A stretch of 33,978 nucleotides of DNA from contig JAHFDG010000044.1 in NCBI GenBank assembly GCA_023249105.1, forward strand, positions 1 through 33,978. The letters run 5' to 3'. Every line of letters starts with the position of its first letter. Within the stretch, counting starts at the first letter, position 1. This stretch comes from Candidatus Methanoperedens sp. (lineage in GTDB: Archaea; Halobacteriota; Methanosarcinia; Methanosarcinales; Methanoperedenaceae). Shown here one piece after another: positions 3,397 through 21,540 of this stretch. Position numbers and translations under genes: made by a program. The notes under the pieces are model-generated. The model searched no databases. It saw nothing but the letters and a program-made list of their open reading frames with translations, and was not told where the DNA came from.

Positions 3397-3460
3397 TATT
3401 ATAAGTATTATAGTATTAGAATAAGACAAAAGTAGATTTTTGACCTAAATCCTGAAATTT

Positions 3461-4324: not shown

Positions 4325-4444
4325 CAAGATTTAATTTTTCTGATATCCGAAATTGTTAATATAACAAAACGGCATTAAACATTTATGAAAGTCTTAAACT
4401 ATCGCCTCCTGCTCAGAAAAGAGCCTGAAGGATAGGGAGATAAC

Positions 4445-4774: not shown

Positions 4775-5160
4775 AGGACGAAAAAGACATCCTTGAACTT
4801 CTGACCAAAGCCCGAGAGAGCCTGAAGGCTGCTGAATTTTTAATTGAGGGGCAATTTTATGATTTCTCAGCTGGAAGGTCTTACTATGCTATGTTTTACG
4901 CCACCGAAGCGGTTCTGCTGTCTAAAAACCTGTCCTTCTCAAAACACTCAGCAGTAATCGCTGCCTTCGGAAAGGATTTTATTAAAACAAAGATTTTCAA
5001 TCAGAATATGCGAGATTCGCTTGTATCAGCTTTTGAGTTGAGACAGATGGGTGATTACGGAAGTTCTGGCTCAGTAAGCAAAGATAAAGCACAATCTCTT
5101 ATAACGCAAGCAAGAGAATTCGTAAACGTTGTTGAAGAATATTTGAAAAAAACTTCTTAA
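4771..5160 (+). CDS. HEPN-domain protein paired with MNT
   Basis: This 129-residue, mostly helical protein has the HEPN-family signature around residues 34-50 (AGRSYYAMFYATEAVLL). It starts with TTG, four bases inside the end of the nucleotidyltransferase gene. In toxin HEPN proteins an R-x4-6-H motif forms the RNase site. I do not see it here: the only histidine, in FSKHSAV, is not placed in such a motif, and the C-terminal conserved segment reads LRQMGDYGSSGSV. The protein may be an atypical HEPN, for example a COG1895-like member, without RNase activity or with a different site. The family assignment is firm; the toxin role is only possible. Confidence 0.85.
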   Translation: MKDEKDILELLTKARESLKAAEFLIEGQFYDFSAGRSYYAMFYATEAVLLSKNLSFSKHSAVIAAFGKDFIKTKIFNQNMRDSLVSAFELRQMGDYGSSGSVSKDKAQSLITQAREFVNVVEEYLKKTS

Positions 5161-5167
5161 GAATATC

Positions 5168-5479
5168 ATGAGAACCCTCACCGACCTCGACAAAAAGCTC
5201 CTCGCAAAACTCGCGCCTGAACTTGAAGGCGAAACAGGACCGGCGCCCGGGCATGATTATAAATTCATCCTGCTTCCGGTATCGCATAAATTATCAGAAT
5301 CACCTGAAGATTTCGCTAACAGGGTCAATAGGTTGACAGATGAAGAGCTAATTTACCTTGTTGAACTGATTTTAAAAGGAGAAGAGGATGTGCGCTCCTT
5401 AGCTGAAGGGGATTCGGATGCGCTTTTTGAATTAATAGGGAAGAGATTGCCGGAAAAGGCGAGGGAATTAATCAAGTAA
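5168..5479 (+). CDS. small acidic protein of unknown function
   Basis: This 103-residue protein is not recognised. It is hydrophilic, probably helical and cytoplasmic, with a conserved-looking middle (HDYKFILLPVSHKLSES) and a helical C-terminal half rich in Glu and Leu. It starts 7 bp after the HEPN gene, so it is probably read from the same transcript. Whether it belongs functionally to the MNT/HEPN pair or to the next unknown gene is unclear. No signal peptide or membrane helix is visible. Confidence 0.65.
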   Translation: MRTLTDLDKKLLAKLAPELEGETGPAPGHDYKFILLPVSHKLSESPEDFANRVNRLTDEELIYLVELILKGEEDVRSLAEGDSDALFELIGKRLPEKARELIK

Positions 5480-5519
5480 CTACAGAACTCAATATCGTTA
5501 TTTCCTGATAGAACATGAT

Positions 5520-6059
5520 GTGGGATTTACAATTGATAAGACGCCGCCAGAAGCGATTATAAGGTTTGACCCTGTTTCAAAGGAAATTAAGGTTTATAAC
5601 AGCGAGACAGGCAAAGAAGAAGGCTACTCTATCCAATATTTGAAGAAATATTTGGGCAGGGAAGAATCAGGTGAGGGTAAGGGCTGGGAACCAAGGCGAT
5701 ACACGCTTAAAGACTGTGCCGATAACTCGATGGTATTGGAGTTGAAGTACAAGAAGGAAGGAAAAGAAGCCATGGTAAAAGTCATAAGCATGCAGTATAA
5801 TGGCGGTGATATAACAGCGGCGGCAAAGAATCACGTGAGCTCTGGGTGGTCTGAAGAAAAGAACGGCGCAATAAAGGAATTGGAAGAGAAGAGTGAAGCA
5901 GAGATGCTTTTCGATGCCGCGGCTAAGTACAGCGCTAAGAAGAACCAGACAGAGATACACGTAAGGAGCGAAGGGCATGTGGAACAGGCGGAAAACAGAA
6001 CGGGCATTGCCATACTTGAACTATTGAGTGATAGGGGCAGATTAAATATCAGGTATTGA
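5520..6059 (+). CDS. hypothetical cytoplasmic protein
   Basis: This 179-residue hydrophilic protein is not recognised. The frame starts with GTG; no alternative in-frame start lies between the preceding stop and this codon, and no strong ribosome site is visible. The N-terminal half looks beta-rich (AIIRFDPVSKEIKVYNS) and the C-terminal third is charged and helical. It lies 40 bp after the previous small gene, in the same direction, so it may share its transcript. The exact start is uncertain, but the long open frame in line with its neighbours supports a real gene. Confidence 0.6.
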   Translation: MGFTIDKTPPEAIIRFDPVSKEIKVYNSETGKEEGYSIQYLKKYLGREESGEGKGWEPRRYTLKDCADNSMVLELKYKKEGKEAMVKVISMQYNGGDITAAAKNHVSSGWSEEKNGAIKELEEKSEAEMLFDAAAKYSAKKNQTEIHVRSEGHVEQAENRTGIAILELLSDRGRLNIRY

Positions 6060-6113
6060 CCTCAAAAATGCTTTGCCTTAGAAAAGATTATCTCGGTTTA
6101 ATTTAGAGTAAGT

Positions 6114-7037
6114 ATGATGTCTTATTTAAGGAAACAAATTTTAATAAGTATTATTTTAATAGTATCCGCACTTTTTATAATTCAAGCATCTTCCGCTGCC
6201 GAAGATTGTACTTCGTGCCATAAAATAAGACATGGAACAACAGGCGACAATTGTGAAAACTGTCATTATAATACTACTTTTTCAAATGGTAAACATCTGG
6301 AAAAGCCATATTCACCCGGTTTCATGCATGATAGTTTTGACTGGGAAGGGGATAATGCCAATGAAAAAGGAGCTGACAGGCTGAATGAAAGCTGTCCGGT
6401 ATGTCACGTCAAAATGCTGGAACATACATCCCCAACACTGAATGTCTGTGAAGACTGCCATGTAAAAGTAAATCCGGAGATAAGTTCCCTTGCTAATGTG
6501 CGACCGGATATCGTAAAATATATCCCGATGGTCTATTCCCATTACACAGGTTCTCCTATCAATGTGACAGACCAGTCTTCTTTAGGAAATACAAAATCTT
6601 CGTGCTTCGGGTTTGATAAAGCAAGCGGGGAAGGTTCATGTCATGGCGTGACGTTTGGAAATAAGGCAAAAGCAGGCGGCTATTTTTCATTCAATACAAA
6701 TTATACAGATACATTATTTAACGGGGGCGACCCTTACCACTGGAATGCTCCGGTGGATTACATGCCAGATTCCAGGAATTGTGTTTTCTGCCATCTCCAG
6801 GAAGATGAAAATATAAGAAAAGCATGGGGAGCTCCCAGGCCCTTGCCTTCAGATTCGCCCCATCTTAATATTGAGAATAAGGACTGCTGGAGCTGCCATG
6901 TCGAGGGGCAGTTAAAAAGTTTCCACGGAAAAGAGATTGTAAAAACAGTAAAAAAATCATATCTTACAAGCATACTTACAATTTCGTTAGTAATAACAAT
7001 ATTAATTGCACTATGGCTCTATAAGAAACAAAAATAA
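6114..7037 (+). CDS. membrane-anchored seven-heme c-type cytochrome
   Basis: This 307-residue multiheme cytochrome should face outside the membrane. An N-terminal signal or anchor (about 6-28) is followed by six canonical C-x2-C-H sites, starting CTSCH at 32, CENCH at 47, CPVCH at 94 and CEDCH at 112, with CVFCH and CWSCH further on. One long-spaced site, C164-x11-C176-H177, lies between the fourth and fifth canonical ones. A C-terminal helix (about 283-302) ending in KKQK predicts an anchor with a short positive tail inside. All seven sites correspond in order to hemes 27-33 of the giant cytochrome at 11708, including the x11 site and phrases such as FDWE, YSH and the DPPHW/DPYHW-type segment. 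It is likely a membrane-side electron relay; the partner is inferred to be the giant cytochrome. Confidence 0.92.
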   Translation: MMSYLRKQILISIILIVSALFIIQASSAAEDCTSCHKIRHGTTGDNCENCHYNTTFSNGKHLEKPYSPGFMHDSFDWEGDNANEKGADRLNESCPVCHVKMLEHTSPTLNVCEDCHVKVNPEISSLANVRPDIVKYIPMVYSHYTGSPINVTDQSSLGNTKSSCFGFDKASGEGSCHGVTFGNKAKAGGYFSFNTNYTDTLFNGGDPYHWNAPVDYMPDSRNCVFCHLQEDENIRKAWGAPRPLPSDSPHLNIENKDCWSCHVEGQLKSFHGKEIVKTVKKSYLTSILTISLVITILIALWLYKKQK

Positions 7038-7065
7038 TTATCATACGAGCATTCAAAGAGGCAAA

Positions 7066-8523
7066 ATGTCCCAAAAAATCCTGTTAATAACACCGCCTTA
7101 CCACTGCGGCGTACTGGAGTCGGCAGGCACATGGATGCCGCTTGGCATGGTGTACGTTGCAGGCAGCCTGCAAAATGCAGGGTACGAGGTCAGGATATAT
7201 GACGCCATGTCGAAGTTCCATACGTTTAAAGACATCAGGAACCACATAAAGGATTATTGCCCAGATGCAGTGGGGATGGCAGCTTATACATCAAGCGTTT
7301 ACGATGCCATCAGCGTCCTTAAAATAGCCAAAGAAGTCAATCCAGAGATAATTACGCTCCTCGGTGGCATACATCCTACTTTCTGCTGGGAAGAAATACT
7401 GCAAAAAGATGGAAGCACTGTGGATTACATAATACGGGGAGAGGGTGAAAAAACTACCACGGAACTTCTTGACCAGGTTTTTTCTGAAAAGAAACCTGAC
7501 GTGCCGGGAATTGCCTATGCGCGTGACGGGAAAATTATATGTACAAAACAACGCCCGCTTATCACCGACCTGGACGCCCTTCCTGCGGCGTGGAATCTTG
7601 TGGAGTGGCAGGATTATACATTCAAGACCAAAAAGAACTCCACGCTTGCGGTTGTGAGTTCTTCAAGGGGCTGCACGCAGAAGTGCACTTTCTGCTCACA
7701 GAGGCTTTTCTGGAGGGAACGATGGAGGGCGCGAAGCCCTGAGAATTTCGTATCCGAGCTTGAATACCTGAACGCTAATTTTGGCGTGGACGTGGCGATG
7801 ATTGCGGATGAAACCCCGACGTATGACCGCAAACGGTGGGAGGAAATCCTTGACCTCCTTATTGCAAAGAATCTTGACATTGAGCTTTTGATGGAAACAA
7901 GGGTGGATGACATCCTGCGGGATAAGGATATAATGGATAAATATGCAAAAGCGAAAGTCGTCCATATATATGTGGGAGCCGAATCTGTGAGCCAGAATAC
8001 CCTTGACCGTTATCATAAAAACCTGAAAGTTGAGGAGTCCAAAGAGGCGATTGACCTGATAAACAATGCAGGGATAATTTCGGAAACCTCTTTTGTCCTG
8101 GGAATGCCTGACGAAACACCACAGTCCATTGAGGCTACTATTAAACTGGCGAAGTACTATAATCCGGACCTTGCGTTTTTCCTGGCGATAGCCCCGTGGC
8201 CTTATTCTGATATTTATCCCGAACTTGCGCCGTATATTGAGGAATTTGATTATTCTAAATACAACCTTATTGAACCGATAGTCAAACCCATCAAGATGAC
8301 GCGTGAAGAGCTTAACAGGCATTTGCTCAAGGCATTTCGGGAGTTCTACATGGATAAGCTTGAAAGGATAGACGAGATGAGCGAGTTCAAGAAAAACTAC
8401 ATGATAGATGTCACGCGACTGCTCATCAACGATTCTTACCTCTCAAACCAGATGAAGGGGGAGATGCCGGAAAAGGTAAAACGGTTTATTGAAAAGTACA
8501 TAACAGATGTTAATACTGGTTGA
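7066..8523 (+). CDS. BchE-like cobalamin-dependent radical SAM enzyme
   Basis: This 485-residue protein has an N-terminal B12-binding domain (about 1-140; LLITPPYHCGVLESAG, LLGGIHPTF, IIRGEGE) and a radical SAM core with the cluster motif Cys203-x3-Cys207-x2-Cys210 (RGCTQKCTFCSQ). From memory it follows the BchE pattern closely, including FCSQ-x2-FWR, ADE-PT and a C-terminal APWPYSDIYPEL...KYNLIEPIVKP. BchE is the oxygen-independent Mg-protoporphyrin monomethyl ester cyclase of phototrophs. Nothing here suggests chlorophyll synthesis, so the substrate is unknown; a tetrapyrrole is plausible given the flanking cytochrome genes. The chosen ATG has GAGG upstream; a longer frame from 7006 would overlap the cytochrome gene. 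The 3' end overlaps the thioredoxin gene tail to tail by 14 bp. Confidence 0.88.
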   Translation: MSQKILLITPPYHCGVLESAGTWMPLGMVYVAGSLQNAGYEVRIYDAMSKFHTFKDIRNHIKDYCPDAVGMAAYTSSVYDAISVLKIAKEVNPEIITLLGGIHPTFCWEEILQKDGSTVDYIIRGEGEKTTTELLDQVFSEKKPDVPGIAYARDGKIICTKQRPLITDLDALPAAWNLVEWQDYTFKTKKNSTLAVVSSSRGCTQKCTFCSQRLFWRERWRARSPENFVSELEYLNANFGVDVAMIADETPTYDRKRWEEILDLLIAKNLDIELLMETRVDDILRDKDIMDKYAKAKVVHIYVGAESVSQNTLDRYHKNLKVEESKEAIDLINNAGIISETSFVLGMPDETPQSIEATIKLAKYYNPDLAFFLAIAPWPYSDIYPELAPYIEEFDYSKYNLIEPIVKPIKMTREELNRHLLKAFREFYMDKLERIDEMSEFKKNYMIDVTRLLINDSYLSNQMKGEMPEKVKRFIEKYITDVNTG

Positions 8524-8983
8524 GTTTTGATTTTGCCAGAATCTCATTTAATTTAATCAGGAACTCATCAGTTGGAAGGTATCCCGGGATTCTTGATATC
8601 TCTTCGCCGTCTTTTGTAAAGAAAATCATATACGGAGTGCTTCGCACATTGAGGTTGAGAGCAACATTTTTTTGTTTAAAGGTATCTATTGATACAATGA
8701 CAAAATTTTTCTTGAGTATATCCACGACCATTTTGTCGGATAATGCTTCTTCTTCGAATTTTTTGCACCAGTAGCACGTTTCAGACCTGAAATAAAGGAA
8801 AATCGGTTTGCTAAGATTCTTTGATTCATTAATTCCAGTGTCTATTGATGTATAAAACGACAGCTTGCCAAGTTTAATATATTCCCCTTCGTTTTTTGAA
8901 AGTGCAGCCTCTACCCAGTTCGCAATGAGAAACAGGGCTAAACCAAGGACAATGACCGATATTAGTTTATTTCTTGGCGTCAT
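8510..8983 (-). CDS. membrane-anchored thioredoxin-like protein
   Basis: This 157-residue protein has an N-terminal membrane helix (about 7-25) and an extracytoplasmic thioredoxin fold. The redox pair is Cys70-Tyr-Trp-Cys73 (SETCYWCKKFEEE) and the cis-proline loop is RSTPYM (Pro117). It resembles the DsbD gamma/thioredoxin_7 group. In system II cytochrome c assembly a thioredoxin of this kind keeps the apocytochrome CxxCH cysteines reduced, and its placement next to ccsB supports that job. It is divergent from ccsB, with TATA boxes almost touching at 9012-9030. No Shine-Dalgarno site is visible and the TATA box lies about 30 bp upstream, so the mRNA is probably leaderless. Confidence 0.87.
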   Translation of the reverse strand: MTPRNKLISVIVLGLALFLIANWVEAALSKNEGEYIKLGKLSFYTSIDTGINESKNLSKPIFLYFRSETCYWCKKFEEEALSDKMVVDILKKNFVIVSIDTFKQKNVALNLNVRSTPYMIFFTKDGEEISRIPGYLPTDEFLIKLNEILAKSKLNQY

Positions 8984-9011
8984 TTTAAGCTGTGTTTACA
9001 TCGTCTGCAAA

Positions 9012-9030
9012 GCTATTTATAGGTTTATAT
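9012..9030. promoter_or_regulatory. back-to-back TATA boxes of a divergent promoter
   Basis: On the minus strand CCTATAAATAG lies about 30-40 bp upstream of the thioredoxin ATG at 8983. Immediately beside it on the plus strand, GTTTATATGAG (9022-9032) points toward ccsB at 9100. The two boxes cannot easily be occupied at the same time, so thioredoxin and ccsBA expression may compete or be switched together. Confidence 0.5.
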
Positions 9031-9099
9031 GAGATTAATCTATAATGCTGAAAATCCATTCTAATAAACAAAATTATATGGTTCAGGAAAGATAAAATA

Positions 9100-10503
9100 A
9101 TGGATTTTGTTACTGGAAAAAAAATTGCCAATTTTTTTAAATCCCGGAAACTCGCTGTTGTTCTTATTTTCCTCATTATCTTATTTTCGATAATCGGGAC
9201 ACATATACCCCAGAAATCTGCTCTTAAACCTGACGTATATAATACATGGAAAGCTAATCATCCTGCACAGGCATATTACTTTGAGAAACTTGGTCTGACG
9301 CATCTGTTCTCATCTTTTATATTTGTAAGCCTTGCATTGCTGCTTTTCATCAATACGCTGTTCTGCACTAAGAATATGCTAACGGGTGTTTATCGAAGGC
9401 TGGGGAATCAGCAATTCCAGAAAAAAGCATACATCAGCGAACTTGAAAACAGTACGACGCTCCAGACAGAAAAAGGGATTATGGACGTTATATCCGATGT
9501 AAGTTCTGTACTTAAGCACGAAGGGTATAAAGTATCTCAAGAAGATAATTGCATTTTTGCTGAAAAAAACAGGTTCGGTATAATTGGCACGTCGTTTTTC
9601 CACTTGTGCATACTTTTTATCATACTGGCTGCGGTTTATGGCAGCACAGGCAGGATGGAGGGGGATATAAGGTTAATAGAAGGACAGGCTCTCTCAGAGG
9701 AGCATGGGAATTATATTTTTGTTAACGAAGGTCCTTTCTTTAATGAGAATCACCAGAAATTCGATATTTCTCTTGAGAAATTCTATCCCGATTATAAGGA
9801 TGAAGCAGGGACGCCGCTGGGGCCGGCAGGAAAGCTTGCCATAACAGAGAATGGCCAGAAAGTGAAAACGGATATGGTTTATCTGAATAACCTGATGACT
9901 TATAAGGGGTATACCTTTCTTGGAAATGTATATGGCCTGGCGCCGTTATTGATTTTAAGGAATCCTGACGGAACTGTGTATTCAGGATCATATATAACAG
10001 CTTCTGACCTTGATAAAAGCGGAAGATATGTTGCATCGTTTGATCTGGGCGATACAGGGATTGAAGGGGGATTGATGGTTTACATGACTTCGCCTTTAAC
10101 ACAAAAAATTACGGAATCCGGCGCTGAGCAAACACCAATCATGTTCTTGAAGTTGTTCTACAAAGGAAAAGAGATATACGATGGAACTCTCAGGCTCAAC
10201 GAGACCATTAAGATATCCGATATGTACCTTGGTTTTTATGATATTAAATACTGGAGTAATTTTTATGTTGTGAAGGATGAAGGCATTCTTCCTGTATATG
10301 CTGGAATCGGGCTGCTAACCTTCAGCCTTGTAATGATTTTCTTTATTGTCCCTAAGAGGGTCTGGATTGAGGTTACGGAAAATGAGAATGCAACGGAGAT
10401 TTATATTGGTGGGCGAGCGGATAAGTTCAGGTTTTTATACGAAGAAGAATATAGCAGCCTTGTAAATAAAATAGAAGAAAGGTTGAACCATGGGACAAAT
10501 TGA
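9100..10503 (+). CDS. ccsB: cytochrome c biogenesis protein CcsB (ResB family)
   Basis: This 467-residue protein belongs to the ResB/CcsB family, one half of the system II heme lyase that attaches heme to CxxCH motifs outside the membrane. The family opening is visible (FFKSRKLAVVLIFLIILFSIIGTHIPQ), followed by helices at about 68-88 and 162-180, a large external beta-rich domain (about 190-405), and a final helix near 408-428. The external part includes the ResB-like phrase TFLGNVYGLAPLLILRNPDG. The gene overlaps the next one by 14 bp, so CcsB and CcsA are translationally linked. It is the obvious assembly factor for the many cytochromes encoded on either side. Confidence 0.9.
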   Translation: MDFVTGKKIANFFKSRKLAVVLIFLIILFSIIGTHIPQKSALKPDVYNTWKANHPAQAYYFEKLGLTHLFSSFIFVSLALLLFINTLFCTKNMLTGVYRRLGNQQFQKKAYISELENSTTLQTEKGIMDVISDVSSVLKHEGYKVSQEDNCIFAEKNRFGIIGTSFFHLCILFIILAAVYGSTGRMEGDIRLIEGQALSEEHGNYIFVNEGPFFNENHQKFDISLEKFYPDYKDEAGTPLGPAGKLAITENGQKVKTDMVYLNNLMTYKGYTFLGNVYGLAPLLILRNPDGTVYSGSYITASDLDKSGRYVASFDLGDTGIEGGLMVYMTSPLTQKITESGAEQTPIMFLKLFYKGKEIYDGTLRLNETIKISDMYLGFYDIKYWSNFYVVKDEGILPVYAGIGLLTFSLVMIFFIVPKRVWIEVTENENATEIYIGGRADKFRFLYEEEYSSLVNKIEERLNHGTN

Positions 10504-11326
10504 TTGGATAATGTATCTCGCCGCCACAACGCTCTATGCTTTGAGTTCGGTCATATATATATACTGTATCGTATTCAAGAAAGAAGATAGAATAAATTTT
10601 GCAGTGAGCAGCGCAATTATCGGATTGTTATTCCACAGTGTAGCCATAGCTATGAGATGGATAGAAGTAGAGCATGGTCCTTACATAAGCATGTTCGAGA
10701 TATTATCAAAATATGCATGGTTTTCGGTGGTTATTTTCCTGTTAGCCCAGCAAAAATATGAAAAGATAAAGAGCGCAGGTTTTATAGTGATGCCTGCATC
10801 CTTTTTAATGATGGCTATAGGTTCAACTTATTCAAGGGACGCCCAGCTACTCTCCGCCTCGCTTCGCAGTTACTGGTTGATAGCGCATGCGGGTTTTGCA
10901 AGCATCGCCTTCGGGTCGATAATTGTTGCGGTAGGCGCTGCAGTTCTTTATATCCTGAAAGAGAAGCGCTTAAATACTGGCGTTTCGGATTCATTTTACG
11001 ACAGGCTGCCTCCTTTAAAAGTCATGGATGACCTCATGTATCGTTTTGTGGCATTGGGCTTCTTCTCTCTTACGATTATGATAGCAGCCGGCGCTATCTG
11101 GGCGAACCAGACGTGGGGCAGGTACTGGGGCTGGGACCCCACGGAAACATGGTCTTTGATTACATGGTTTACATACGCGATTTGCCTGCATCTGCGGATG
11201 AATGCGGGATGGACAGGAAAAAGGATTGCATGGCTTATCATTTTTAGCATATTCATACTTGCATTTTCGGCGTTTGGTGTCGGGTATGTGTATAGCGGGC
11301 GTCATACGGATTATTTGACTTCGTGA
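10490..11326 (+). CDS. ccsA: cytochrome c biogenesis protein CcsA (heme handling protein)
   Basis: This 278-residue integral membrane protein with about eight helices is the heme-handling partner of CcsB. The tryptophan-rich WWD heme-binding signature is clear from residue 209 (WGRYWGWDPTETWSLITWF). Histidines expected to ligate heme are seen in FHSVAIAMRW, LIAHAGFAS and CLHLRM. CcsA with CcsB exports heme and joins it to apocytochromes. It starts inside the end of ccsB and is followed at once by a T-rich stretch, so the ccsBA transcript probably ends before the giant cytochrome gene, which then has its own promoter. Confidence 0.94.
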   Translation: MGQIDWIMYLAATTLYALSSVIYIYCIVFKKEDRINFAVSSAIIGLLFHSVAIAMRWIEVEHGPYISMFEILSKYAWFSVVIFLLAQQKYEKIKSAGFIVMPASFLMMAIGSTYSRDAQLLSASLRSYWLIAHAGFASIAFGSIIVAVGAAVLYILKEKRLNTGVSDSFYDRLPPLKVMDDLMYRFVALGFFSLTIMIAAGAIWANQTWGRYWGWDPTETWSLITWFTYAICLHLRMNAGWTGKRIAWLIIFSIFILAFSAFGVGYVYSGRHTDYLTS

Positions 11327-11330
11327 AGAT

Positions 11331-11345
11331 ATTTTTTTTTATATA
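11331..11345 (+). terminator. oligo-T terminator after ccsBA
   Basis: A run of nine T (11332-11340) followed by ATATATTTTT begins 5 bp after the ccsA stop codon. U-rich runs like this end transcription in archaea without needing a hairpin. Confidence 0.5.
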
Positions 11346-11399
11346 TTTTTGCTTGACATTGTCACATTTCAGAGCAAATGAATTATTTCAGACGGGATA

Positions 11400-11445
11400 A
11401 CAGGATAAAACAGGATTGTGTATAAAATCATCCTGTTAATCCTGT
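11400..11445. repeat. double inverted repeat ACAGGAT/ATCCTGT
   Basis: ACAGGAT occurs at 11400-11406 and again at 11410-11416. Its reverse complement ATCCTGT occurs at 11430-11436 and 11439-11445. The result is an imperfect hairpin with a 13-nt loop. Similar CAGGAT-rich tracts are common as intergenic repeats in many prokaryotes. Confidence 0.7.
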
Positions 11446-11707
11446 CCGAATCGCTCATAACAAGTCGCTATTTTAAGACAGAATACTTAGTAAAACCGAA
11501 GCACATATAAATTATACAGCTTTAACGGTATAATCTGGCAAAGTCAAGTTAGGACTAAAACCCCAATATCAGAATCCGGATTGATAACTAATATTCATGA
11601 AATTAAAATCATGTAAACCTATTTATTTTGAACGTGCATAAATAACAATTAAGGTGATATGAAAACAGGATTGGAAAGAAAACAATGCAGAAAGTCAAGG
11701 TCAAAAA

Positions 11708-14700
11708 ATGGATGTTTTACGAGATAAAGAAGGCCTCTCGAATGTCAGGCTAATAATACTTGTGTTTGTAGTTTTATCAGGTATAGCCGCGGCTTTATTG
11801 TATTTTCCTCCAATCCCAACCCGTACTGAAGCGCTAAAAACAAGCGGTGAAATAACATTCGCAGACAGTGCAGGAAATCCGCTAAGCGGCGCAATGACTC
11901 TAAGCGGCGAAGGGATATCAAGCGGACCGCCAAAACCGAATGTAAACCTTATAAGCTGGACACAAATCCCTAACGCCACAATCAATTATGATGCTTTATC
12001 CACAAAGAGCCTTTCAATCAACCTTCGGATTTCAGGGGATTCGCCAAAAGGCACGGTAGTACTGGAAAATTACGGCACAACTCTCCCCGGAAGCGTGAAC
12101 ATAACCGCGCCAGAGACGCCTGTAAAGTACGTGGAAATCAACTCCAGCAGCGTTTCCTTTGCTGATGCCGGTATATCTATAAAATACACGGATGCGGAAG
12201 TCAGCGGGCTGGATGTGAATAACCTTGCTATATATTATTATGACGGCGTTTTACAGGCATGGACTGAACTGCCCACCTCAATTGATATCGGGAATAATAT
12301 CCTCACCGCGACCGTGAACTCCCTGGGTTTCTTTTCTGTGAGCACAAGGATACCGCAAGGAATAGAAGTCCATGATACAAATAAAATTTCGGTAATAAGT
12401 AACATAAAGATATACGATGAAGCAAAAACGCTGAAGAAGGAAGCAAAGACCGATAAGCTGTCAACGGTTGAGGTTCCAGACAGGGGAGAGCTTGAGGTTG
12501 ATGCGCTTGCAAGCAAGAACGTGGCGGTCAAGCTCAAGGTCAATAAGGCAAACAAGGGCGCAATCATATTGGATGATTTCGGAAAGAAGAACCCGAGTTC
12601 AATTCCGCTTCCGGGAATGGCTGTGAAATTCGTGGAAATCGGCGCAAGCGGCATCTCGTTCTCTTCCGCCAATATAACCATACGCTACACCGACGCTGAA
12701 TTAATCGGCGGGAGCGAAGACGCTCTTACCATTTATCACTGGAACGGGGCTTCATGGGATGCCGTACCCACAGTAATAGATAAGGTAAACAAGACCCTCA
12801 GCGCCAGCACGGCATCGCTTTCGTTATGGGGGGTTGCAACACTTTACCGGCAGGCTCTGCGGTGCGATGCTGGCACTTCCATTGGTGCTGATACAACTAA
12901 TTTTACATGCACCACGGCTTCCACTCCTTATGACATAGGATTACTCCTGGATAATACTGCCGGGATAAGCACTGTTATTCGAATCGGAACTGCCGCAAAT
13001 GGGCCATGGATTTATGCTTATTTTATAAATAACACTGCGTTTTACACCGATGTAAATGTTACAGGTTATTCAGCTTCAATTTCTATGAGAGTAACAACAT
13101 CTGGCAGAACTGATTATGGATGGTATGAATTAGGATATTATGATCCAAATGGAGCTTCAGGTAATTTTGTCGGCTTATTCAATTCAACGGCAGCATCAAC
13201 GACTGCAACGGCACAGACATCATATGCAATATCATTTAATGGCAAATCAGGAGTTATTCCAGCCAATAAAAAATTAGCGATTAGAGTATGGACGAATGCC
13301 ACGGGTGGAACCGACAGACCTTATTTTTATTCATTTAGTACGGCAGCTGCCGCTAATAGCTCGTTTGATATAAGCATTGCTTACGCGAACTCTTATATCT
13401 CAGGCTATGTTACAAACAAATCCAGCGGTCTTCCATTAAGCGGCGCGACAGTCCAGACAAATACCAGCCTGACCACGACCACGAATGCATCTGGCGGATA
13501 TAATTTCACAGGCTTATCCAACGGAACATACAATATAAATGCAAGCCTCCAAAACTATGCCACCAATTCCATAAACGTAACAATTAACGACAATAATAAC
13601 AATACTGCAAACATCTCACTGACGCCTCTTCCAACCTACCTGTTATCAGGCTATGTTACCAATGCTTCAAACGGCGCCGCTATATCCGGCGCCACGATTA
13701 CCACGAACACAAGCCAGACAACCACCACAAACGCAACAGGCTACTACAATTTCACTTTGAGCAACGGCACTTATATTATAACAGCCAGCATGGCAGGATA
13801 CAGCGGTAACTCTACCACGCAAGCAATAAATGGCGCTGCGGTGAGCGGTGTAAATATCATGCTTACGCCCACGCCCCCGGTATCGGGGAAGATACTGGTT
13901 GCAACGAACAGGTTCGTAATTCTGGACGATCCCAACGATGCGGGGGGGCAGGTTGTTACAGGGTCGGGATTCCAGGTACCCACTCCAAACGACTGGGGAA
14001 GCAGGAGCACCGTATGGGCAGGCATAGCCACCACCATAAATGCCACAGCGATGTACATAGATAACAACGGGTTTCCGGTCTCAGGAAAAGTCATAAACTT
14101 CACAATATACTGGCCAAACGGGACAGCTTTAACTACTGTAAAGGATACTACGAACTCGCGTGGTCTTGCCAATTTCAGCTATAATCTTGATAATAAGAAC
14201 TTCTATGGACGCTGGGCAGTAAGGGCAGAAAATGGCAGTTTAGGTTCAAACACCAGCTTTATCTACAACTGGTGGGGATGCTCATGGAGCGGCGGCACTT
14301 GTGGGAACCAGCATTCGAGTGTGAATCCTACAACAGGTGCCACTGCCAACTCCCCATATCTAAGCGGCAGGGATACAACAACAACAGCAAACTCTGCACA
14401 CACAAGCCATGGTGCAGGCTGGACTAACAGTGATACTAACGCCTGCACACACTGCCACCAGTCCTTTGATAATAATACCGGTGACGCATATACCGCAAGA
14501 TACGATAACCATCCAGCCGATGTTCACCGTAATATAAGTTGCGACAATGCTAATTGTCATGGTACTTATACCACACATGGTACAAATATGCTTGTTTACT
14601 CCTGCTACAACTCAGGATGCCACGGTAATGCAACAGCTTGGGACAGGACGGACATCTCAAACAAGTCCACGCTCAACAGCGCCACGGTCTCGACTGCCGT

Positions 14701-17700
14701 GAGCATTTATTCCTACAACAACGCCTCAACCTTCAACGCAACCTTCCATACTCCCAGTTCCACAGTGCCCTGTATCATCTGCCACGGTCCGATGCACAAC
14801 ATCTCCAAGCCTGACCAAAACAACATCACAAGGTTTACACGTAATAACATTACCGAAGATTCCCAATGCACAACCTGCCATTCAAGCTACACCGAGCATA
14901 ACTCAAGCAATACCACCTCAGGCGGCGTTAACTGCACACTCTGCCACAGCGATGATGTGCATGACATACAGGTATTTGCACAGAACGCCACGTATGTGGA
15001 CTTAAATCGTTCCAGTCCAAATCCTGCCAGAGGCAACTGCACCAACTGCCACCAAAACGCCACGTTCTTCGCTGCTCTTGAAGCGCAGCCAAAAGCGGGC
15101 AATTACACAGGAAGAGATCCTCCGCAGGTCGCAGTTCCCCTGGAGCACAGCAACGACCCAAGCGCAGGCGCAAAGTGGAAACAGACGTACTGGACCACCA
15201 GCGACCAGCTTACATGGTGTATCTACTGCCATGGCGATACAAAACACAGTTCAATCGCCCTTGGCAGACCTGCAAGCTGGGATGGGAATAACAACGTGAA
15301 TTCATCGCTTACGCCCGGCAGCACCACGTGGTGCGCAGGCTGCCATTGGAAGGGATACGCCAGCGGCGCGAGTACCTATAACGACATGGTAAGTACATTC
15401 ACAGGAGCGGGTTTATTAGTTCCGCCTGAAATCAGCGGCAATAGTACATACGGCGCCAACACCAGCATCTACGAATACACCAACCATTCGCTTTACACAG
15501 GTTTCTCCTCCAACCTGAACGACTCCACATGCGACCGCTGCCATGGCTATAATTATCCCTTTACCACCATAACCCAGCTCATGCACAACCAGAGCAGGGT
15601 AGGCGGAGCCAACTGCGCAGACTGCCATGACATAGGAGGCATTGCCTTACTGGCTCATGTGAATGTGACAGCAGCAAACGATACCAACGCCATACACAAG
15701 AACCTCAACATAAACGCTGCTCATGTGTTGAACTTAACAGTATATTACGATAACAATAAGCGCTGCTGGGCCTGTCATGGAAACGGGAGCGAGCCTTCAA
15801 CGCCCAACGCCCATCCTACCAGCTACAAAATGCCGGATAACTGCACGGACTGTCATATACAATCCGTCACGCAGAACTTCAATTTCACACCTAACAATAC
15901 CCTGCTCAATGTCACTGAGCATTACTGGAACGCAGCCGATATACATACGCCTGCGGTCTCTGCCTGCTACGCCTGCCACAACAGGAGCGAGATGCTCATT
16001 CCTGCAAACGACCCTGACGCAGGAAGCGGCGCAGTCTATGGAGGAGCCAACGGCGGCAGTAACAGCAGCAGCCACTATGGAAAGAAACGGGCGGATTTGA
16101 GAATCGGGATAAGCGCAAATTGTTCATACTGCCACCAGAATACGAGCACTGCATTTGCAACAGCCATGCTGGACCCTGCCTATAACAGCAGCATCAGTAA
16201 CCACAGCCTGAATTACCCCGCATCCAATCCCCCCTGTACCCAGTGCCATAATACGGGCTGGATACACAACAGCACATTAATCAGACCTGTCCTTAACCTT
16301 CCTAACTCAAGCTACTGCCTGGCATGCCACGGTACGGGCGGCAGCGCCACTATCAAGAATTTAGAGAGGCACAACAGCACATCCCTGACCGCTCTTAACT
16401 GTACAAACTGCCACCTCAACACAAGCCGCAGCATCCATCCGGTGCGGTACCTCCAGCAGGACGGCTCCAGCTTCAGCACATTGAAGACAAATGCAGTCAA
16501 CTGCACAACATGCCACCAGGGCACGGGATTAACCAATTTCAGCAACGCCACGAAAATCCCAACACCAATTAACCACAGTACCAATCCCTACAACGGGTCC
16601 CTGTGGAACAGCACGCCCGGCTACTGGACAAACACCAGCCCGCAGAGCGCCTGCAACTACTGCCACAACAAGTCCGCGCTTCACAACTCTTCAGGGCTGG
16701 GCTATATCTCACTCATCCAGGGCGGCAACACCAAGAACCAGAGCTTAAGCGGCGGCTACTGGTGTGCGAACTGCCATTACAACGGCTCGGCGCCAGGCGG
16801 CAAATACAGCTATAATGGTAACCTGTTCACTCCCCATCCGCCTGAAGTAAACAACAAGAGCGGTCTCGTCCCGCAATCTGCCAGGGACGGTACAAGTTTC
16901 ATCAATCACTCATGGGCACTCGCGACCTCCTACGACGATGCCAGGTGCAAGGCATGCCACAACAACAGCATCCTGGATGGAGGGAATTCCACATCGCGGT
17001 ACTTTAGCCATGACGTCAGGCCGGGCGGCCCCGATTGTCTTGCCTGCCACGACATTAATGGAACCGGAGCACCCCCCGACAAGAAAATAAACGCCAGTGC
17101 CATGCTGCTGGGCGTACACAAAAACCTGAACCAAAACGCCACCAACACTACAATATTAAACTCGCTCAACAAAGGCTGCTGGGCATGTCATGGAATCGGC
17201 ACCGAGCCGACCGGTCATCCTGCCAATTACAAGTCGCCATATGCGTGCGTAGAATGCCATAACGCTACAACGAATTTCACAAGTCCAAACATCACGCTTC
17301 AGAACGAAATAACAAGAAAGAAAACCTATAACCACATACCTTATAATTATACCCTTAGCGGCCCAACAGGTTACGGTTACAAAATTACCTCAGACTACTG
17401 GAACACTTCGGTGAACTGTACTGCATGCCATAGTAAGAGCACAGTATACTTCAACGTCACATTCACCACAACCAATTCGCTGGCAGCCAATATCTCGCAT
17501 TACGCCAACAAATCCAACCTGATTTCTCCTACAAAAACCTGTACCCTTTGCCACAAATCCCCTGAAAACTCAACCAACTGGTATGCCAACCTCACAAGAC
17601 ATCCTGCGAAAAGCCAGAACGTGAGCTTCTGTGCCAACTGCCACAACACCAACGACACAAACGTAACCACGTTCCACTCTCAACCGTTGTTCTATTCATA

Positions 17701-20278
17701 TTCAATCCATGGCGGTATGTCCCAATTGCCATTTTTAACCTTTGACCGTGGTTTTGACTGGGAGAAAGACGATTACAATGAGTCAGGAACAATAGATCCC
17801 ACGGGGGAACCCTGTTATGCATGCCACGGTCTTACCAATATCGGTGATATAAAGACGAACATCCAGTCGGTCAAACGGTGTGAGAACTGCCACATGCCCA
17901 ATACTACTTCTTTATTTACAGGTCCGAACAACACATACCTGTACAACCTGAGAAGCGACATCAACGATACGCTGCCCGGTATTTATTCCCATACCAATTA
18001 CTCCAACATAACTGGCACTAACGTAATCGTACCCTCACAGGGCGGCACTGCAACACCCACCACATGCTACAGCTACAACTCCACAACAGGAGATGCCACA
18101 TGCCATGCAGCCCCATATTTCAACAAATCTAATTTCGGAGGTTACTATGCCCAGTATAACAGTCCCACAGGACCAGTTGCCAAGTACGATCCACCTCACT
18201 GGACAGTCCCCATAGACCGCATGCCCAACACCACCAACTGCCTGTTCTGCCACAACCAGAGCAACATTACAATAAGGAAAGGATGGGGCAATGCGACGCA
18301 GGTAAACGCCGGCAACATGTTCGGCAATAGATATGCAATAAGCAACGATTCGTGCTATGCCTGTCATACCAGGGCAAAAGCGCAGCCCGTAGACTTCCAC
18401 TCAAGCGAAGTGATAAAAGGCGGCGGTCCCGGCTGCCTTGACTGCCACAACAACTCCAACCGGCAGAATTATACGAACCTGTCCTACATCGACGGCGCGA
18501 ATTATAGCAATTCAATCCATGCCGGAATAAACAGGGCAAACGCAACAGTCAACGGCATAGATTACGGCATAAACGCAAGCTGCTGGGCATGCCACAACTC
18601 AAGCGGGTACGCAGTCCCCAACAACACCCATCCAGACAGGAGAGACACTCCCTATAACTGCACGGCATGCCACTTAGCCGGTGGAAGCAACGCAGGAGCT
18701 TTTAATGCGCCGATTATATCCAATCATTACAGGAACGGGACAAATATCAGGGCGCTGGACAACCGGACGAGCGACCTTATCTCCTGCCTGGGATGCCATG
18801 AAAATGTATCAGGAATGATAACACCCAATACTGATACGGATTATGGCTCATTCTCAAGTGATGGAGTAGGCGTTAAAGGAGGGAATGCGAGCTTCTATCA
18901 TTACGGCGCCAACAGGTCGAACTTTGGTAAGACCGCAGGGAGCTATGATTACTGCATATATTGCCACAGGAATACAACAGGCGAGTTTAATATCACGTTC
19001 CAGGATACTGCCAACTACAGCATATCCAACCACAGCCTGAGATATAATTCCTCCAACCCGTCATGCAGTGTAAGAGAATGCCACAATAGTACAAATTCAT
19101 CGCTGCACGGCGCCCGGTTAATTAAACCCAACATCAATAGCACACCGCATAACAGTACATATTGCCTGGGATGCCACGGATTGAATGTCTCAAATGGCAC
19201 TATAAATTATACAGGAGCAGTGACAACCTATAAAGAGAAGCACAATAATACGGTTAATTGTACTGAATGCCATACGGGCATAAATAAGAGAAATATCCAT
19301 CCAATGACATATCTCCAGCCTAACGGCAGTTATGTTTCTGCAAACCAGACAGGTGTAAACTGCGCCGATTGCCACCAGCAAAATACATTAGATTCAAACC
19401 TTTCAAGGACGCCTCCAAAAGTCCCGGCTACAGTCCAGCATAGTGATAATCCGCTAAACGGTTCTATCTGGAACCGTACTCAAGCGGGTTATTGGACAAA
19501 TACCAGCCAGCAGACCATGTGTAATTACTGCCACGGAGATACAAGGCACAATACTACACCGCTTGGAAGACCTGCCAACTGGAGCGGGAGCAACACTGTG
19601 AATTCATCCATTACAAACAATAGCAACTGGTGTGCAGGATGTCACTATAATGGCTACTCAAGCGGCGGAAGGAGCTACGGTAACATGACCCTGACCTTTA
19701 CGGGCGCCAATCGTTCAGTGCCTCCGGAGATTACAAACACCTCCTCCTATTCGCCTTATAATGTAAGCGGCTACTATAACCACTCCCTGACCCCTGATTA
19801 TAACGATTCAACCTGTCAGGGCTGTCATGGCAAATTCCTGCCATCCGGCGCAAAGATGGATGAGTTCGTTCACAATATAAGTACAGGCTTATGCAAAAAT
19901 TGCCATTTCAACTACAATTACATGAGTAGCAGAAACAAACCTGATAAATATGTCAATTCTACAATGTTCAACAACAGCCCGCACAGTTCATTGGCTTGTG
20001 AGGACTGCCACACGAAAGGGCACAATAATATAGGCGCAAGAAAAGCATGTGAGGACTGCCATGCATACCAGAGCGACCCAAAGAACCAGACCGACCGGCA
20101 CAACATAACAAGGACGCCGAGCACGTATTATTATAATGGAATAAATGTTTTAAATATCACTGACTGCACCGTTTGTCATGATTCGACATTGTATAACAAA
20201 GCAACAACCAATTATGGTTACAATAAGACCGTAGATTGTAATTATTGCCACACATATCCGGACAAGACATATTCATGA
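11708..20278 (+). CDS. giant 50-heme extracellular c-type cytochrome
   Basis: This 2856-residue cytochrome carries 50 heme-binding sites by my count: 46 C-x2-C-H, three C-x4-C-H (from Cys945, Cys966, Cys2453) and one C2120-x11-C2132-H2133. Order: membrane anchor (about 13-34); two beta-rich domains (about 45-217, 218-385) resembling the PGF-pre-PGF surface module; an unassigned beta region to about 555; two carboxypeptidase-regulatory-like domains (about 561-638, 643-720); an Ig-like section; then the heme region 913-2848, about one heme per 39 residues. Hemes 11-22 and 34-45 are two copies of a 12-heme unit, 23-26 start a third, and 27-33 match the cytochrome at 6114. N-x-S/T sequons are dense, suggesting glycosylation. 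There is no C-terminal anchor. Its role as an extracellular electron conduit is inferred from family knowledge. Two small cytochrome genes follow closely. Confidence 0.95.
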   Translation: MDVLRDKEGLSNVRLIILVFVVLSGIAAALLYFPPIPTRTEALKTSGEITFADSAGNPLSGAMTLSGEGISSGPPKPNVNLISWTQIPNATINYDALSTKSLSINLRISGDSPKGTVVLENYGTTLPGSVNITAPETPVKYVEINSSSVSFADAGISIKYTDAEVSGLDVNNLAIYYYDGVLQAWTELPTSIDIGNNILTATVNSLGFFSVSTRIPQGIEVHDTNKISVISNIKIYDEAKTLKKEAKTDKLSTVEVPDRGELEVDALASKNVAVKLKVNKANKGAIILDDFGKKNPSSIPLPGMAVKFVEIGASGISFSSANITIRYTDAELIGGSEDALTIYHWNGASWDAVPTVIDKVNKTLSASTASLSLWGVATLYRQALRCDAGTSIGADTTNFTCTTASTPYDIGLLLDNTAGISTVIRIGTAANGPWIYAYFINNTAFYTDVNVTGYSASISMRVTTSGRTDYGWYELGYYDPNGASGNFVGLFNSTAASTTATAQTSYAISFNGKSGVIPANKKLAIRVWTNATGGTDRPYFYSFSTAAAANSSFDISIAYANSYISGYVTNKSSGLPLSGATVQTNTSLTTTTNASGGYNFTGLSNGTYNINASLQNYATNSINVTINDNNNNTANISLTPLPTYLLSGYVTNASNGAAISGATITTNTSQTTTTNATGYYNFTLSNGTYIITASMAGYSGNSTTQAINGAAVSGVNIMLTPTPPVSGKILVATNRFVILDDPNDAGGQVVTGSGFQVPTPNDWGSRSTVWAGIATTINATAMYIDNNGFPVSGKVINFTIYWPNGTALTTVKDTTNSRGLANFSYNLDNKNFYGRWAVRAENGSLGSNTSFIYNWWGCSWSGGTCGNQHSSVNPTTGATANSPYLSGRDTTTTANSAHTSHGAGWTNSDTNACTHCHQSFDNNTGDAYTARYDNHPADVHRNISCDNANCHGTYTTHGTNMLVYSCYNSGCHGNATAWDRTDISNKSTLNSATVSTAVSIYSYNNASTFNATFHTPSSTVPCIICHGPMHNISKPDQNNITRFTRNNITEDSQCTTCHSSYTEHNSSNTTSGGVNCTLCHSDDVHDIQVFAQNATYVDLNRSSPNPARGNCTNCHQNATFFAALEAQPKAGNYTGRDPPQVAVPLEHSNDPSAGAKWKQTYWTTSDQLTWCIYCHGDTKHSSIALGRPASWDGNNNVNSSLTPGSTTWCAGCHWKGYASGASTYNDMVSTFTGAGLLVPPEISGNSTYGANTSIYEYTNHSLYTGFSSNLNDSTCDRCHGYNYPFTTITQLMHNQSRVGGANCADCHDIGGIALLAHVNVTAANDTNAIHKNLNINAAHVLNLTVYYDNNKRCWACHGNGSEPSTPNAHPTSYKMPDNCTDCHIQSVTQNFNFTPNNTLLNVTEHYWNAADIHTPAVSACYACHNRSEMLIPANDPDAGSGAVYGGANGGSNSSSHYGKKRADLRIGISANCSYCHQNTSTAFATAMLDPAYNSSISNHSLNYPASNPPCTQCHNTGWIHNSTLIRPVLNLPNSSYCLACHGTGGSATIKNLERHNSTSLTALNCTNCHLNTSRSIHPVRYLQQDGSSFSTLKTNAVNCTTCHQGTGLTNFSNATKIPTPINHSTNPYNGSLWNSTPGYWTNTSPQSACNYCHNKSALHNSSGLGYISLIQGGNTKNQSLSGGYWCANCHYNGSAPGGKYSYNGNLFTPHPPEVNNKSGLVPQSARDGTSFINHSWALATSYDDARCKACHNNSILDGGNSTSRYFSHDVRPGGPDCLACHDINGTGAPPDKKINASAMLLGVHKNLNQNATNTTILNSLNKGCWACHGIGTEPTGHPANYKSPYACVECHNATTNFTSPNITLQNEITRKKTYNHIPYNYTLSGPTGYGYKITSDYWNTSVNCTACHSKSTVYFNVTFTTTNSLAANISHYANKSNLISPTKTCTLCHKSPENSTNWYANLTRHPAKSQNVSFCANCHNTNDTNVTTFHSQPLFYSYSIHGGMSQLPFLTFDRGFDWEKDDYNESGTIDPTGEPCYACHGLTNIGDIKTNIQSVKRCENCHMPNTTSLFTGPNNTYLYNLRSDINDTLPGIYSHTNYSNITGTNVIVPSQGGTATPTTCYSYNSTTGDATCHAAPYFNKSNFGGYYAQYNSPTGPVAKYDPPHWTVPIDRMPNTTNCLFCHNQSNITIRKGWGNATQVNAGNMFGNRYAISNDSCYACHTRAKAQPVDFHSSEVIKGGGPGCLDCHNNSNRQNYTNLSYIDGANYSNSIHAGINRANATVNGIDYGINASCWACHNSSGYAVPNNTHPDRRDTPYNCTACHLAGGSNAGAFNAPIISNHYRNGTNIRALDNRTSDLISCLGCHENVSGMITPNTDTDYGSFSSDGVGVKGGNASFYHYGANRSNFGKTAGSYDYCIYCHRNTTGEFNITFQDTANYSISNHSLRYNSSNPSCSVRECHNSTNSSLHGARLIKPNINSTPHNSTYCLGCHGLNVSNGTINYTGAVTTYKEKHNNTVNCTECHTGINKRNIHPMTYLQPNGSYVSANQTGVNCADCHQQNTLDSNLSRTPPKVPATVQHSDNPLNGSIWNRTQAGYWTNTSQQTMCNYCHGDTRHNTTPLGRPANWSGSNTVNSSITNNSNWCAGCHYNGYSSGGRSYGNMTLTFTGANRSVPPEITNTSSYSPYNVSGYYNHSLTPDYNDSTCQGCHGKFLPSGAKMDEFVHNISTGLCKNCHFNYNYMSSRNKPDKYVNSTMFNNSPHSSLACEDCHTKGHNNIGARKACEDCHAYQSDPKNQTDRHNITRTPSTYYYNGINVLNITDCTVCHDSTLYNKATTNYGYNKTVDCNYCHTYPDKTYS
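15614..16960 (+). repeat. 12-heme protein repeat unit, copy A (hemes 11-22)
   Basis: This codes for residues 1303-1751 of the giant cytochrome. The heme sites in order are CADCH, CWACH, CTDCH, CYACH, CSYCH, CTQCH, CLACH, CTNCH, CTTCH, CNYCH, CANCH, CKACH. Linkers include IHKNLN before the second site, SNHSLNY before the sixth, IHPVRYLQ after the eighth and YWTNTS before the tenth. Each has a counterpart in copy C at 18434. The repeat is visible at protein level; the DNA has diverged. Confidence 0.85.
18434..19828 (+). repeat. 12-heme protein repeat unit, copy C (hemes 34-45)
   Basis: This codes for residues 2243-2707 of the giant cytochrome. The heme sites are CLDCH, CWACH, CTACH, CLGCH, CIYCH, CSVRECH, CLGCH, CTECH, CADCH, CNYCH, CAGCH, CQGCH, matching copy A one to one. 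The sixth site has become C-x4-C-H where copy A has CTQCH. Shared linkers are SNHSLRY, IHPMTYLQ and YWTNTS. Confidence 0.85.
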
Positions 20279-20285: not shown

Positions 20286-20744
20286 ATGGATAAGAAAATA
20301 TTGTTATTGTTTGCAATCTTTGGGGTATTATTAGCCGCCTCCATGTTAAACACATATGCAACATTTTCAGGAAGCCATACGGTCTATAAAAATACAACTC
20401 CCGCAACTGCAGCAGAATTCTGCTTCAAATGCCATCCAACGAAGGTATCTATCGTAAACGTGAGCGCTCACAAAAATGCAGGATGCATCTGTCATGGTTA
20501 TGCCCCCAATGCCTCGGAGCTTTACAATATAAATCTAGCCCACAACCTTACTAAAAATATATACTGTACAAACTGCCACTCAAATTATACTATTAGCACA
20601 GGGAACATCACAATACACTATGATGCGGGTATTGGAGAAATAAGCGGCATAAACCAGTCTGCCCACTACATAATCGCAAGTTCTGGCAACAAGACCCCGG
20701 TCTATGACAGGGCAAAACAATTCTTTGCAAATGGTTCAAGGTGA
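20286..20744 (+). CDS. small multiheme cytochrome, two canonical hemes plus a C-x-C-H site
   Basis: This 152-residue protein has an N-terminal signal or anchor (about 4-22). Two canonical sites are CFKCH near 46 and CTNCH near 94. Between them lies Cys67-Ile-Cys69-His70 (NAGCICHGY), one residue too short for a standard heme motif but placed where a heme site would be expected. Two or three hemes are therefore possible. It starts 8 bp after the giant cytochrome gene with GAGG upstream, in the same operon. Its first 50 residues resemble those of the next protein (F-x-G-x-HT-x-Y, then C-x-KCH), so the two are probably paralogues. It likely docks with or extends the giant cytochrome. Confidence 0.88.
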   Translation: MDKKILLLFAIFGVLLAASMLNTYATFSGSHTVYKNTTPATAAEFCFKCHPTKVSIVNVSAHKNAGCICHGYAPNASELYNINLAHNLTKNIYCTNCHSNYTISTGNITIHYDAGIGEISGINQSAHYIIASSGNKTPVYDRAKQFFANGSR

Positions 20745-20748
20745 TGAG

Positions 20749-21540
20749 ATGAACAAGAAAATCCTGCTATATTTTGCTTTGATGGTATTCGGCTTATACG
20801 TGATGCCGAACACGGTTTCACTATTTGCAGGGCAGCATACTTTCTACAGCGGAATGGGCGTATCATGCGAGAAATGCCATTCTGATATTTTATCTCAGGT
20901 TGAACATAGCGGAGATGTTTATGTAAAACACAGAGCTGCGGCGGGAAATTATAATTATACCACATATCTTTCCCTTGGCGGGATATCTTACAATGCCACT
21001 TCCATAACGGATTATAATAATATTGTCTGGAACTGGAACACCTCTCAACGAAAGTGGCAGAACTCAAGCAATCCGGCTGAAATGGTAAACGTCAGCCTCG
21101 ATAAGAACGGGAACGGGCAAATAGATAGCGGAGAGATATGCATGCTGTGCCATAACGCAACCCTCTTCGGCGCAAGCACGCACACAGGAACAACAGTCAG
21201 GGTTTGCGATGACGACAGGTGTCACGGAAACCTGGTTTATGCCAATAACAGCCCACAGATTCTTGGGAGTTCCTCTAATATTACAGCAGCCGGGTACAAT
21301 TTGAGCCAGCCGAACGCCCACCAGGCATTTTATCTCCAGGCAAGCAACATGCCATCAAGCTTTGGAATAAGCGAGACATTCGGGCGAATGCCTGGTAATG
21401 TTAATGGCTCTTTCATTTCAAGAGGATTCTGGACATGCGAAGGATGCCATACAGATACCAGTGTAAACATTACAATTCTTCCGGCGCCGGCTTATAATCA
21501 TTCGGTCAGCAGCCCGGAAAAGAAAAGATACCTGCCATAG
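20749..21540 (+). CDS. small four-heme c-type cytochrome
   Basis: This 263-residue secreted or anchored cytochrome has a hydrophobic N-terminal segment (about 4-22) and four heme sites: CEKCH, CMLCH, C153-x4-C158-H159 (CDDDRCH) and CEGCH. DKNGNGQIDSGE just before the second site has the look of a calcium-binding loop. The chosen ATG follows AAGGTGAT with good spacing and lies 4 bp after the previous stop. A longer frame from 20704 overlaps the upstream gene and lacks a signal peptide at its start. It is the last gene of the giant cytochrome operon, likely an accessory electron carrier. Confidence 0.9.
   Translation: MNKKILLYFALMVFGLYVMPNTVSLFAGQHTFYSGMGVSCEKCHSDILSQVEHSGDVYVKHRAAAGNYNYTTYLSLGGISYNATSITDYNNIVWNWNTSQRKWQNSSNPAEMVNVSLDKNGNGQIDSGEICMLCHNATLFGASTHTGTTVRVCDDDRCHGNLVYANNSPQILGSSSNITAAGYNLSQPNAHQAFYLQASNMPSSFGISETFGRMPGNVNGSFISRGFWTCEGCHTDTSVNITILPAPAYNHSVSSPEKKRYLP

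Follow-up and report, generated by a model that had tools for sequence, protein, structure and literature searches.

Introduction

How does a single polypeptide come to carry some fifty hemes? The question is raised by a gene of a Candidatus Methanoperedens sp. (assembly GCA_023249105.1, contig JAHFDG010000044.1), of which the first 33,978 nucleotides were analysed; this whole stretch is called the window here. The genome carrying the gene measures 3.28 Mb, and its close relatives are annotated as Candidatus Methanoperedens or Methanoperedenaceae. So far, the largest known cytochromes, of 113 hemes and more, have each been regarded as a giant in its own right, and some of them fall into no class. 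If such giants are composed of copies of a single 12-heme module whose ligand set is fixed, the structure and the measurements of one unit would apply family-wide, and natural copy-number variants would allow a direct test of whether extra hemes lengthen electron reach. Block duplication would moreover be a concrete, sequence-level mechanism for the growth of giant cytochromes. Judging from its sequence, the window protein is, with a probability of about 0.8, a giant c-type cytochrome of an archaeon of the Methanoperedens group; it would be secreted or anchored at the cell surface and be built head to tail from a 12-heme module.

Layout of the Giant Cytochrome

The features of the locus are listed in Table 1. 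The protein has the attributes of a multiheme c-type cytochrome: 46 CxxCH motifs with four non-canonical sites, an N-terminal hydrophobic segment and adjacent c-type maturation genes. The CX4CH sites are located at aa 945, 966 and 2453. The number of 50 hemes given in the initial annotation is right provided that all four non-canonical sites, CX4CH as well as CX11CH, bind heme. The heme-free N-terminal region is conserved with other giant cytochromes. In Pfam, the protein has no match to an S-layer or pectin-lyase domain, and its N-terminus yields CarboxypepD_reg and related beta domains only. At the other end, no C-terminal transmembrane helix was seen, the C-terminus (CHTYPDKTYS) being devoid of a hydrophobic helix. 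Most of the five-heme tail (aa 2740-2856) is a conserved C-terminal cap, with which 11 further unit-bearing ORFs also end. The giant gene is immediately followed by two small cytochrome-like ORFs (20286-20744 and 20704-21540) with two and three CxxCH motifs, respectively, which are possibly co-transcribed partners of it.

Table 1. The giant cytochrome gene, its parts and its neighbours, in nucleotide positions of the window.
Feature	Position	Strand	Remarks
Small 7-heme cytochrome (6 CxxCH + CX11CH)	6114-7037	+	Shares homology with hemes 27/28-33 of the giant cytochrome
ResB-like cytochrome c synthesis protein (System II)	9100-10503	+	Upstream of the giant gene
CcsB/CcsA-like cytochrome c biogenesis protein	10490-11326	+	TIGR03144, above cut-off
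Giant multiheme cytochrome gene	11708-20278	+	2856 aa; 46 CxxCH + 3 CX4CH + 1 CX11CH
Heme-free N-terminal region, aa 1-843	11708-14236	+	Hydrophobic segment at the N-terminus, followed by beta-rich domains (MG2-like, and two stretches resembling CarboxypepD_reg)
Copy 0 (partial), aa 1022-1302: hemes 4-10, aligned to unit sites 6-12	14771-15613	+	HHalign and unit HMM
Copy 1 (full unit), aa 1303-1776: hemes 11-22	15614-17035	+	
Copy 1, A half (hemes 11-16)	15614-16315	+	
Copy 1, B half (hemes 17-22)	16316-17035	+	
Copy 2 (divergent), aa 1777-2242: hemes 23-33	17036-18433	+	
CX11CH motif, aa 2120-2133, CYSYNSTTGDATCH; candidate heme 31	18065-18106	+	Conserved throughout the copy-2 family
Copy 3 (full unit), aa 2243-2728: hemes 34-45	18434-19891	+	
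Copy 3, A half	18434-19162	+	
Copy 3, B half	19163-19891	+	
C-terminal 5-heme tail, hemes 46-50	19892-20278	+	

A Repeated 12-Heme Unit

The initial annotation proposed that hemes 11-22 correspond one to one to hemes 34-45. To determine the repeat signal independently of the heme motifs, the protein was cut between these motifs, the motifs were dropped and every linker was compared with every other. In this linker-only comparison, the mean Z reaches 1.16 at heme offset 12, 2.03 at 23 and 2.46 at 35, whereas no other offset up to 39 exceeds 0.48. In addition, the motif-masked local score of copy 1 against copy 3 is 395, compared to 50±8 (maximum 86) in 500 shuffles that preserve heme register and positions as well as linker composition. 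Both results bear out the correspondence, which goes beyond the CxxCH motifs. Without masking, the two blocks are identical at 197 of 447 positions (44%). Their claimed limits, from the start of heme 11 (aa 1303, nt 15614) to the end of heme 45 (aa 2707, nt 19828), are exact, as are the spacings of 444 and 460 residues between first and last site, and the shared linkers HKNLN/HAGIN, SNHSL, IHPxxYLQ and YWTNTS are all in register in the block alignment.

Chance or motif-driven similarity of the two blocks was considered and rejected, because the score stays far above the motif-removed and register-keeping nulls. Convergence in place of duplication, driven by closely packed CxxCH motifs and a glycosylated composition rich in Asn, Ser and Thr, is practically impossible as an explanation: the composition is indeed strongly biased and CxxCH frequent, but the signal greatly exceeds both nulls with the motifs removed or masked and the composition kept, and duplications at the DNA level are present in relatives.

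Outside the two full copies, the layout had been described as partial, full, interrupted and full. The partial and full copies stand, the partial one with wider limits. Hemes 6-10 do match the last five sites of the unit, but this assignment is too short, as hemes 4-10 align to sites 6-12 (HHalign probability 100 over 238 columns); with the unit HMM, copy 0 is covered by a match of 995-1295 to [175-436] with 156 bits. Hemes 23-26 repeat the first four sites of the unit as claimed, and the match reaches further, hemes 23-28 corresponding to sites 1-6 (HHalign probability 100). The "interrupted" copy, however, is a divergent 11-site copy containing the CX11CH motif. An interruption by unrelated sequence was rejected, since not only hemes 23-28 but also hemes 28-33 match sites 1-6 (HHalign probability 98.4 for the latter, against only 80.3 for sites 7-12).

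The CX11CH motif of copy 2 sits where the unit has site 4. Its consensus resembles C[FY]x[FY]NxxTGxG[TS]CH and occurs in the copy-2 family, which also includes stand-alone proteins of some 640 aa, and in the small cytochrome of the neighbouring gene, where the motif reads CFGFDKASGEGSCH. CX11CH may be a non-canonical heme site of a similar kind to the CX14CH of OmcZ.

The Unit in Related Genomes

In relatives, the unit HMM identifies a unit of about 440-485 aa and 12 hemes that is repeated head to tail. It is present in 30 of the 31 genomes of the genus and in at least 14 of 295 sampled genomes of the phylum; in the phylum survey five candidates were scored per genome, which makes its match counts lower bounds. 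The unit also occurs in Hydrothermarchaeota MAGs (L102, L103). Related giant cytochromes are encoded at four or more other loci of the window's own genome (C45, C55, C76, C124), a single ORF having up to 70 CxxCH. One of these ORFs (L028, G000:C76, 5924-16507, minus strand) encodes 3527 aa with 70 CxxCH and six CX4CH sites and consists mainly of partial units. A viral or Borg-like origin was considered as well; two pattern-based, non-exhaustive scans of viral_contigs yielded no relative.

A comparison of unit number between related genomes, as suggested in the initial annotation, reveals that copy number varies, with up to five consecutive full copies. The longest array is found in L060 (ORF 745-17589, 5615 aa), which has at least six full units, five of them consecutive, and 113 CxxCH motifs. 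L060 and L095 are one contig, VEPN01000036.1 (31,037 bp) of isolate MnB_21, and the ORF appears to be the published 113-heme protein. This ORF also has seven CX4CH sites besides its CxxCH motifs, and its true heme number may therefore be about 120. Four tandem full units are present in L061/L080, and three tandem full units each in L062, L063, L066, L067, L068 and L078.

Most of these relatives are MAGs, and tandem units could in principle be artefacts of short-read metagenome assembly. This is very improbable, as the units within one array clearly differ from each other and the reading frame is kept throughout. Moreover, L116, a single-contig genome of 2,196,266 bp, carries one ORF with two full tandem units, so the arrays are not a product of fragmented metagenomes.

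Growth by Duplication and Exchange of Halves

Growth by duplication of a 12-heme block finds support in the relatives, namely in their tandem arrays, sister copies and DNA duplications. The latter are in frame, have offsets of 1275-1392 nt, i.e., the period of the unit, are about 80-90% identical and are recent. In L095, 4.0 kb is duplicated at an offset of 1344 nt (80% identical); in L063, 2.7 kb at 1317 (81%); in L085, 1779 nt at 1392 (86%); and in L106, 909 nt at 1275 (89.5%). In the tree, the sister copies within L095 (three), L063 (three) and L085 (two) each form one clade with support 100/100. Unequal recombination would add about 12 hemes of conductor per step.

For the window protein itself, the duplication claim is incomplete. 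Its copies 1 and 3 are not sisters in the tree and their DNA similarity is almost gone; they represent ancient, non-sister paralogous types whose six-heme halves were exchanged independently. The window copies are old and mosaic, and the history of the protein is therefore one of shuffling as much as of plain duplication.

The exchange follows from separate trees of the A halves (hemes 1-6 of the unit) and the B halves (hemes 7-12), which conflict. In the A tree, window copy 1 falls together with L089, L048, L082 and L086 (support 0.957). The B halves of these four cluster with that of window copy 3 (support 0.944), whereas that of window copy 1 clusters with L080, L081, L083 and L112 (support 0.996). 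Trees in which the conflicting groups are forced together are rejected, with AU p-values of 7e-5 (B) and 3e-4 (A), which are optimistic because the groups were picked after the trees had been seen. To judge from these trees, A and B halves have been swapped between lineages and have separate histories. When the unit profile is compared with itself, offset 6 is the best internal offset, with a score of 57 (51 for the offset-5 control), and the unit itself likely arose internally as 6+6. The window's own genome additionally contains an ORF (L029, 7840-11250, plus strand) in which A-type modules of six hemes and about 197 aa follow one another in tandem, with no B half among them.

These elements raise the question whether the six-heme half is the actual module, in evolution as well as in structure, the 12-heme period being merely the commonest pairing of A and B among recombined hexahemes. 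We give this alternative a little less than even odds. The conflict between the A and B trees of one unit, the A-type hexahemes that stand alone in tandem, the best internal offset of the profile and the second match of hemes 28-33 to sites 1-6 all speak for it, as does the fact that arrays usually begin near site 6 and finish near site 5 or 6. Against it, the recent duplications in relatives step by 12 hemes and not by 6, the homology of A and B is only moderately above the offset-5 control, and the linkers of the window protein show little similarity at offset 6 (mean Z 0.48).

Neighboring Genes and Their Probable Role in Heme Attachment

Among the 31 genomes of the genus, ResB lies within about 7 kb of a unit-bearing ORF in at least 12 of the 19 contigs with ResB, a count that was read from the combined coordinates of separate searches. 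In all 12 of these contigs, ResB is located upstream and on the same strand. About half of the genomes of the genus are without any ResB match. ResB and CcsB are also found upstream of unit-bearing giant cytochromes in L074, L075, L066/L108, G021:C7, G007:C37 and others. Since ResB adjoins unit-bearing ORFs in this conserved arrangement, the pair is suggested to be a dedicated heme-attachment system for unit-bearing giants, and the ResB-CcsB pair of the window probably helps to attach hemes to the giant protein. The pairing is analogous to the link between CcmF2 and MHC-B that is reported for other giants (PMC9012536).

A strict tie between CX11CH and ResB-CcsB found no support, as in L066/L108 ResB-CcsB adjoins an array without CX11CH in the giant ORF. 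Between the small cytochrome gene, the end of which it overlaps, and resB, the window encodes a BchE-like, B12-binding radical SAM protein (7006-8523), which scores 412 bits with TIGR02026, below the cut-off of 481 bits. The gene is conserved beside ResB-CcsB in L074, L075 and L108, and its product is possibly tetrapyrrole-related.

Predicted Heme Ligation and Proposed Function

In 57 aligned units, there are 12 conserved CxxCH/CX4CH sites and exactly 12 conserved histidines outside the motifs. The latter are 82-100% conserved, with one in each inter-heme linker. As each unit thereby has 12 proximal and 12 distal-type histidines, we infer that every heme of the unit is bis-His ligated. The spacing from site to site along the sequence is conserved as well (SD 1.8-5.4 residues in 51 units). 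The predicted model of a single unit is of moderate confidence (pLDDT 75, pTM 0.66), and the AlphaFold model of two units has a pLDDT of 36. A Foldseek search of the PDB with the single-unit model gave no fold match. In a profile search of PDB sequences, multiheme proteins such as OmcA and MtrF were matched weakly and in part, and shared CxxCH motifs may account for some of this similarity.

The heme region (aa 844-2856, nt 14237-20275) contains 140 N-glycosylation sequons, compared to 51±6 in shuffles, a 2.7-fold excess. Sequon positions are partly conserved, 19 alignment columns having a sequon in at least half of the 57 units. The Methanoperedens group is known to transfer electrons from methane to metals or partners (PMC10542353, PMC7082337). 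Because the protein is heme-rich, has surface-type beta domains and many sequons, and belongs to an electron-exporting host group, it is most likely an extracellular electron conduit. Each unit would fold as an all-bis-His heme chain that hands electrons to the next unit, the chain lying within a heavily N-glycosylated protein. Electrons released in methane oxidation would travel along it to a metal oxide or a partner, across the cell surface or further out.

Alternatively, the array could be a charge store (capacitor) or a multi-point reductase, in which more units mean more hemes and contacts and not more reach. GSU1996, a known repeat-built cytochrome, has been discussed as a capacitor (PMC10138318), but a conduit agrees no less well with the surface-type N-terminal domains, the sequons and the known reduction of metals or partners by Methanoperedens, and we regard storage as rather unlikely. 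Returning to the conduit, a broader reading can be offered tentatively, at less than even odds: archaeal giants might form a combinatorial kit, in which exchangeable six-heme modules of at least two classes, A and B, and the CX11CH variant are shuffled and tandemly duplicated. Their maturation would fall to a System II synthase (ResB-CcsB) that is dedicated to them and accompanies them. If so, module shuffling and duplication would set the length and the local properties of the conductor, and unit number would be an easily evolving length setting for electron reach.

Comparison With Known Systems

Both repeat-built heme chains, from Geobacter, and giant ANME cytochromes are already known. In the open-access literature searched, no description of the 12-heme unit, its variation in copy number or the exchange of half-units was found.

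The giant ANME cytochromes, i.e., MHC-A, MHC-B and MHC-C (PMC9012536) and the 113-heme MHC/S-layer protein of Ca. M. manganireducens, which is reported as the largest cytochrome known (PMC7082337, PMC7327174), resemble the window protein in organism group, in having dozens to more than 100 hemes per chain and in their proposed extracellular role. ANME MHC-A and MHC-B have an S-layer domain (DUF1608) and a C-terminal transmembrane helix, whereas neither was found in the window protein. As it has no S-layer or pectin-lyase match and no C-terminal transmembrane helix, the window protein falls outside types A, B and C. The available text of the three papers does not describe a 12-heme repeat, an exchange of half-units or duplication as the source of size.

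The OmcA/MtrC/MtrF decahemes (PF22113, TIGR03507, PDB 4lmh, 3pmq) are the best annotated or solved sequence relatives of parts of the unit. With PF22113 (MtrC/MtrF domain II/IV) the window protein scores 172.6 bits over 11 stretches, above the gathering score of 30 bits, and with TIGR03507 (OmcA/MtrC decaheme family) 55.3 bits, below the cut-off of 209.3. The sequence matches are partial and the unit model is without a fold match in the PDB; the PF22113 match is part-homology or a motif-driven resemblance, not a decaheme fold.

The Geobacter proteins GSU1996, GSU0592 and GSU2210 are known as "nanowires of hemes", GSU1996 consisting of four triheme domains (PMC10138318). Proteins of this kind share with the window protein the head-to-tail repetition of homologous heme domains in one polypeptide. 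Their module, however, is a triheme of the c7 type with one His-Met heme each (PMC10138318), whereas that of the window protein has 12 hemes (6+6), predicted to be all bis-His, and is archaeal and much longer.

Lastly, the filaments of OmcS, OmcE and OmcZ and the archaeal PcECN and AvECN are long bis-His heme chains that are thought to carry electrons extracellularly (PMC12954529); none of the five is present by name among the PDB sequence matches of the profile search. These filaments polymerise small, separate subunits (PMC12954529), whereas the units of the window protein are covalently joined in a single chain.
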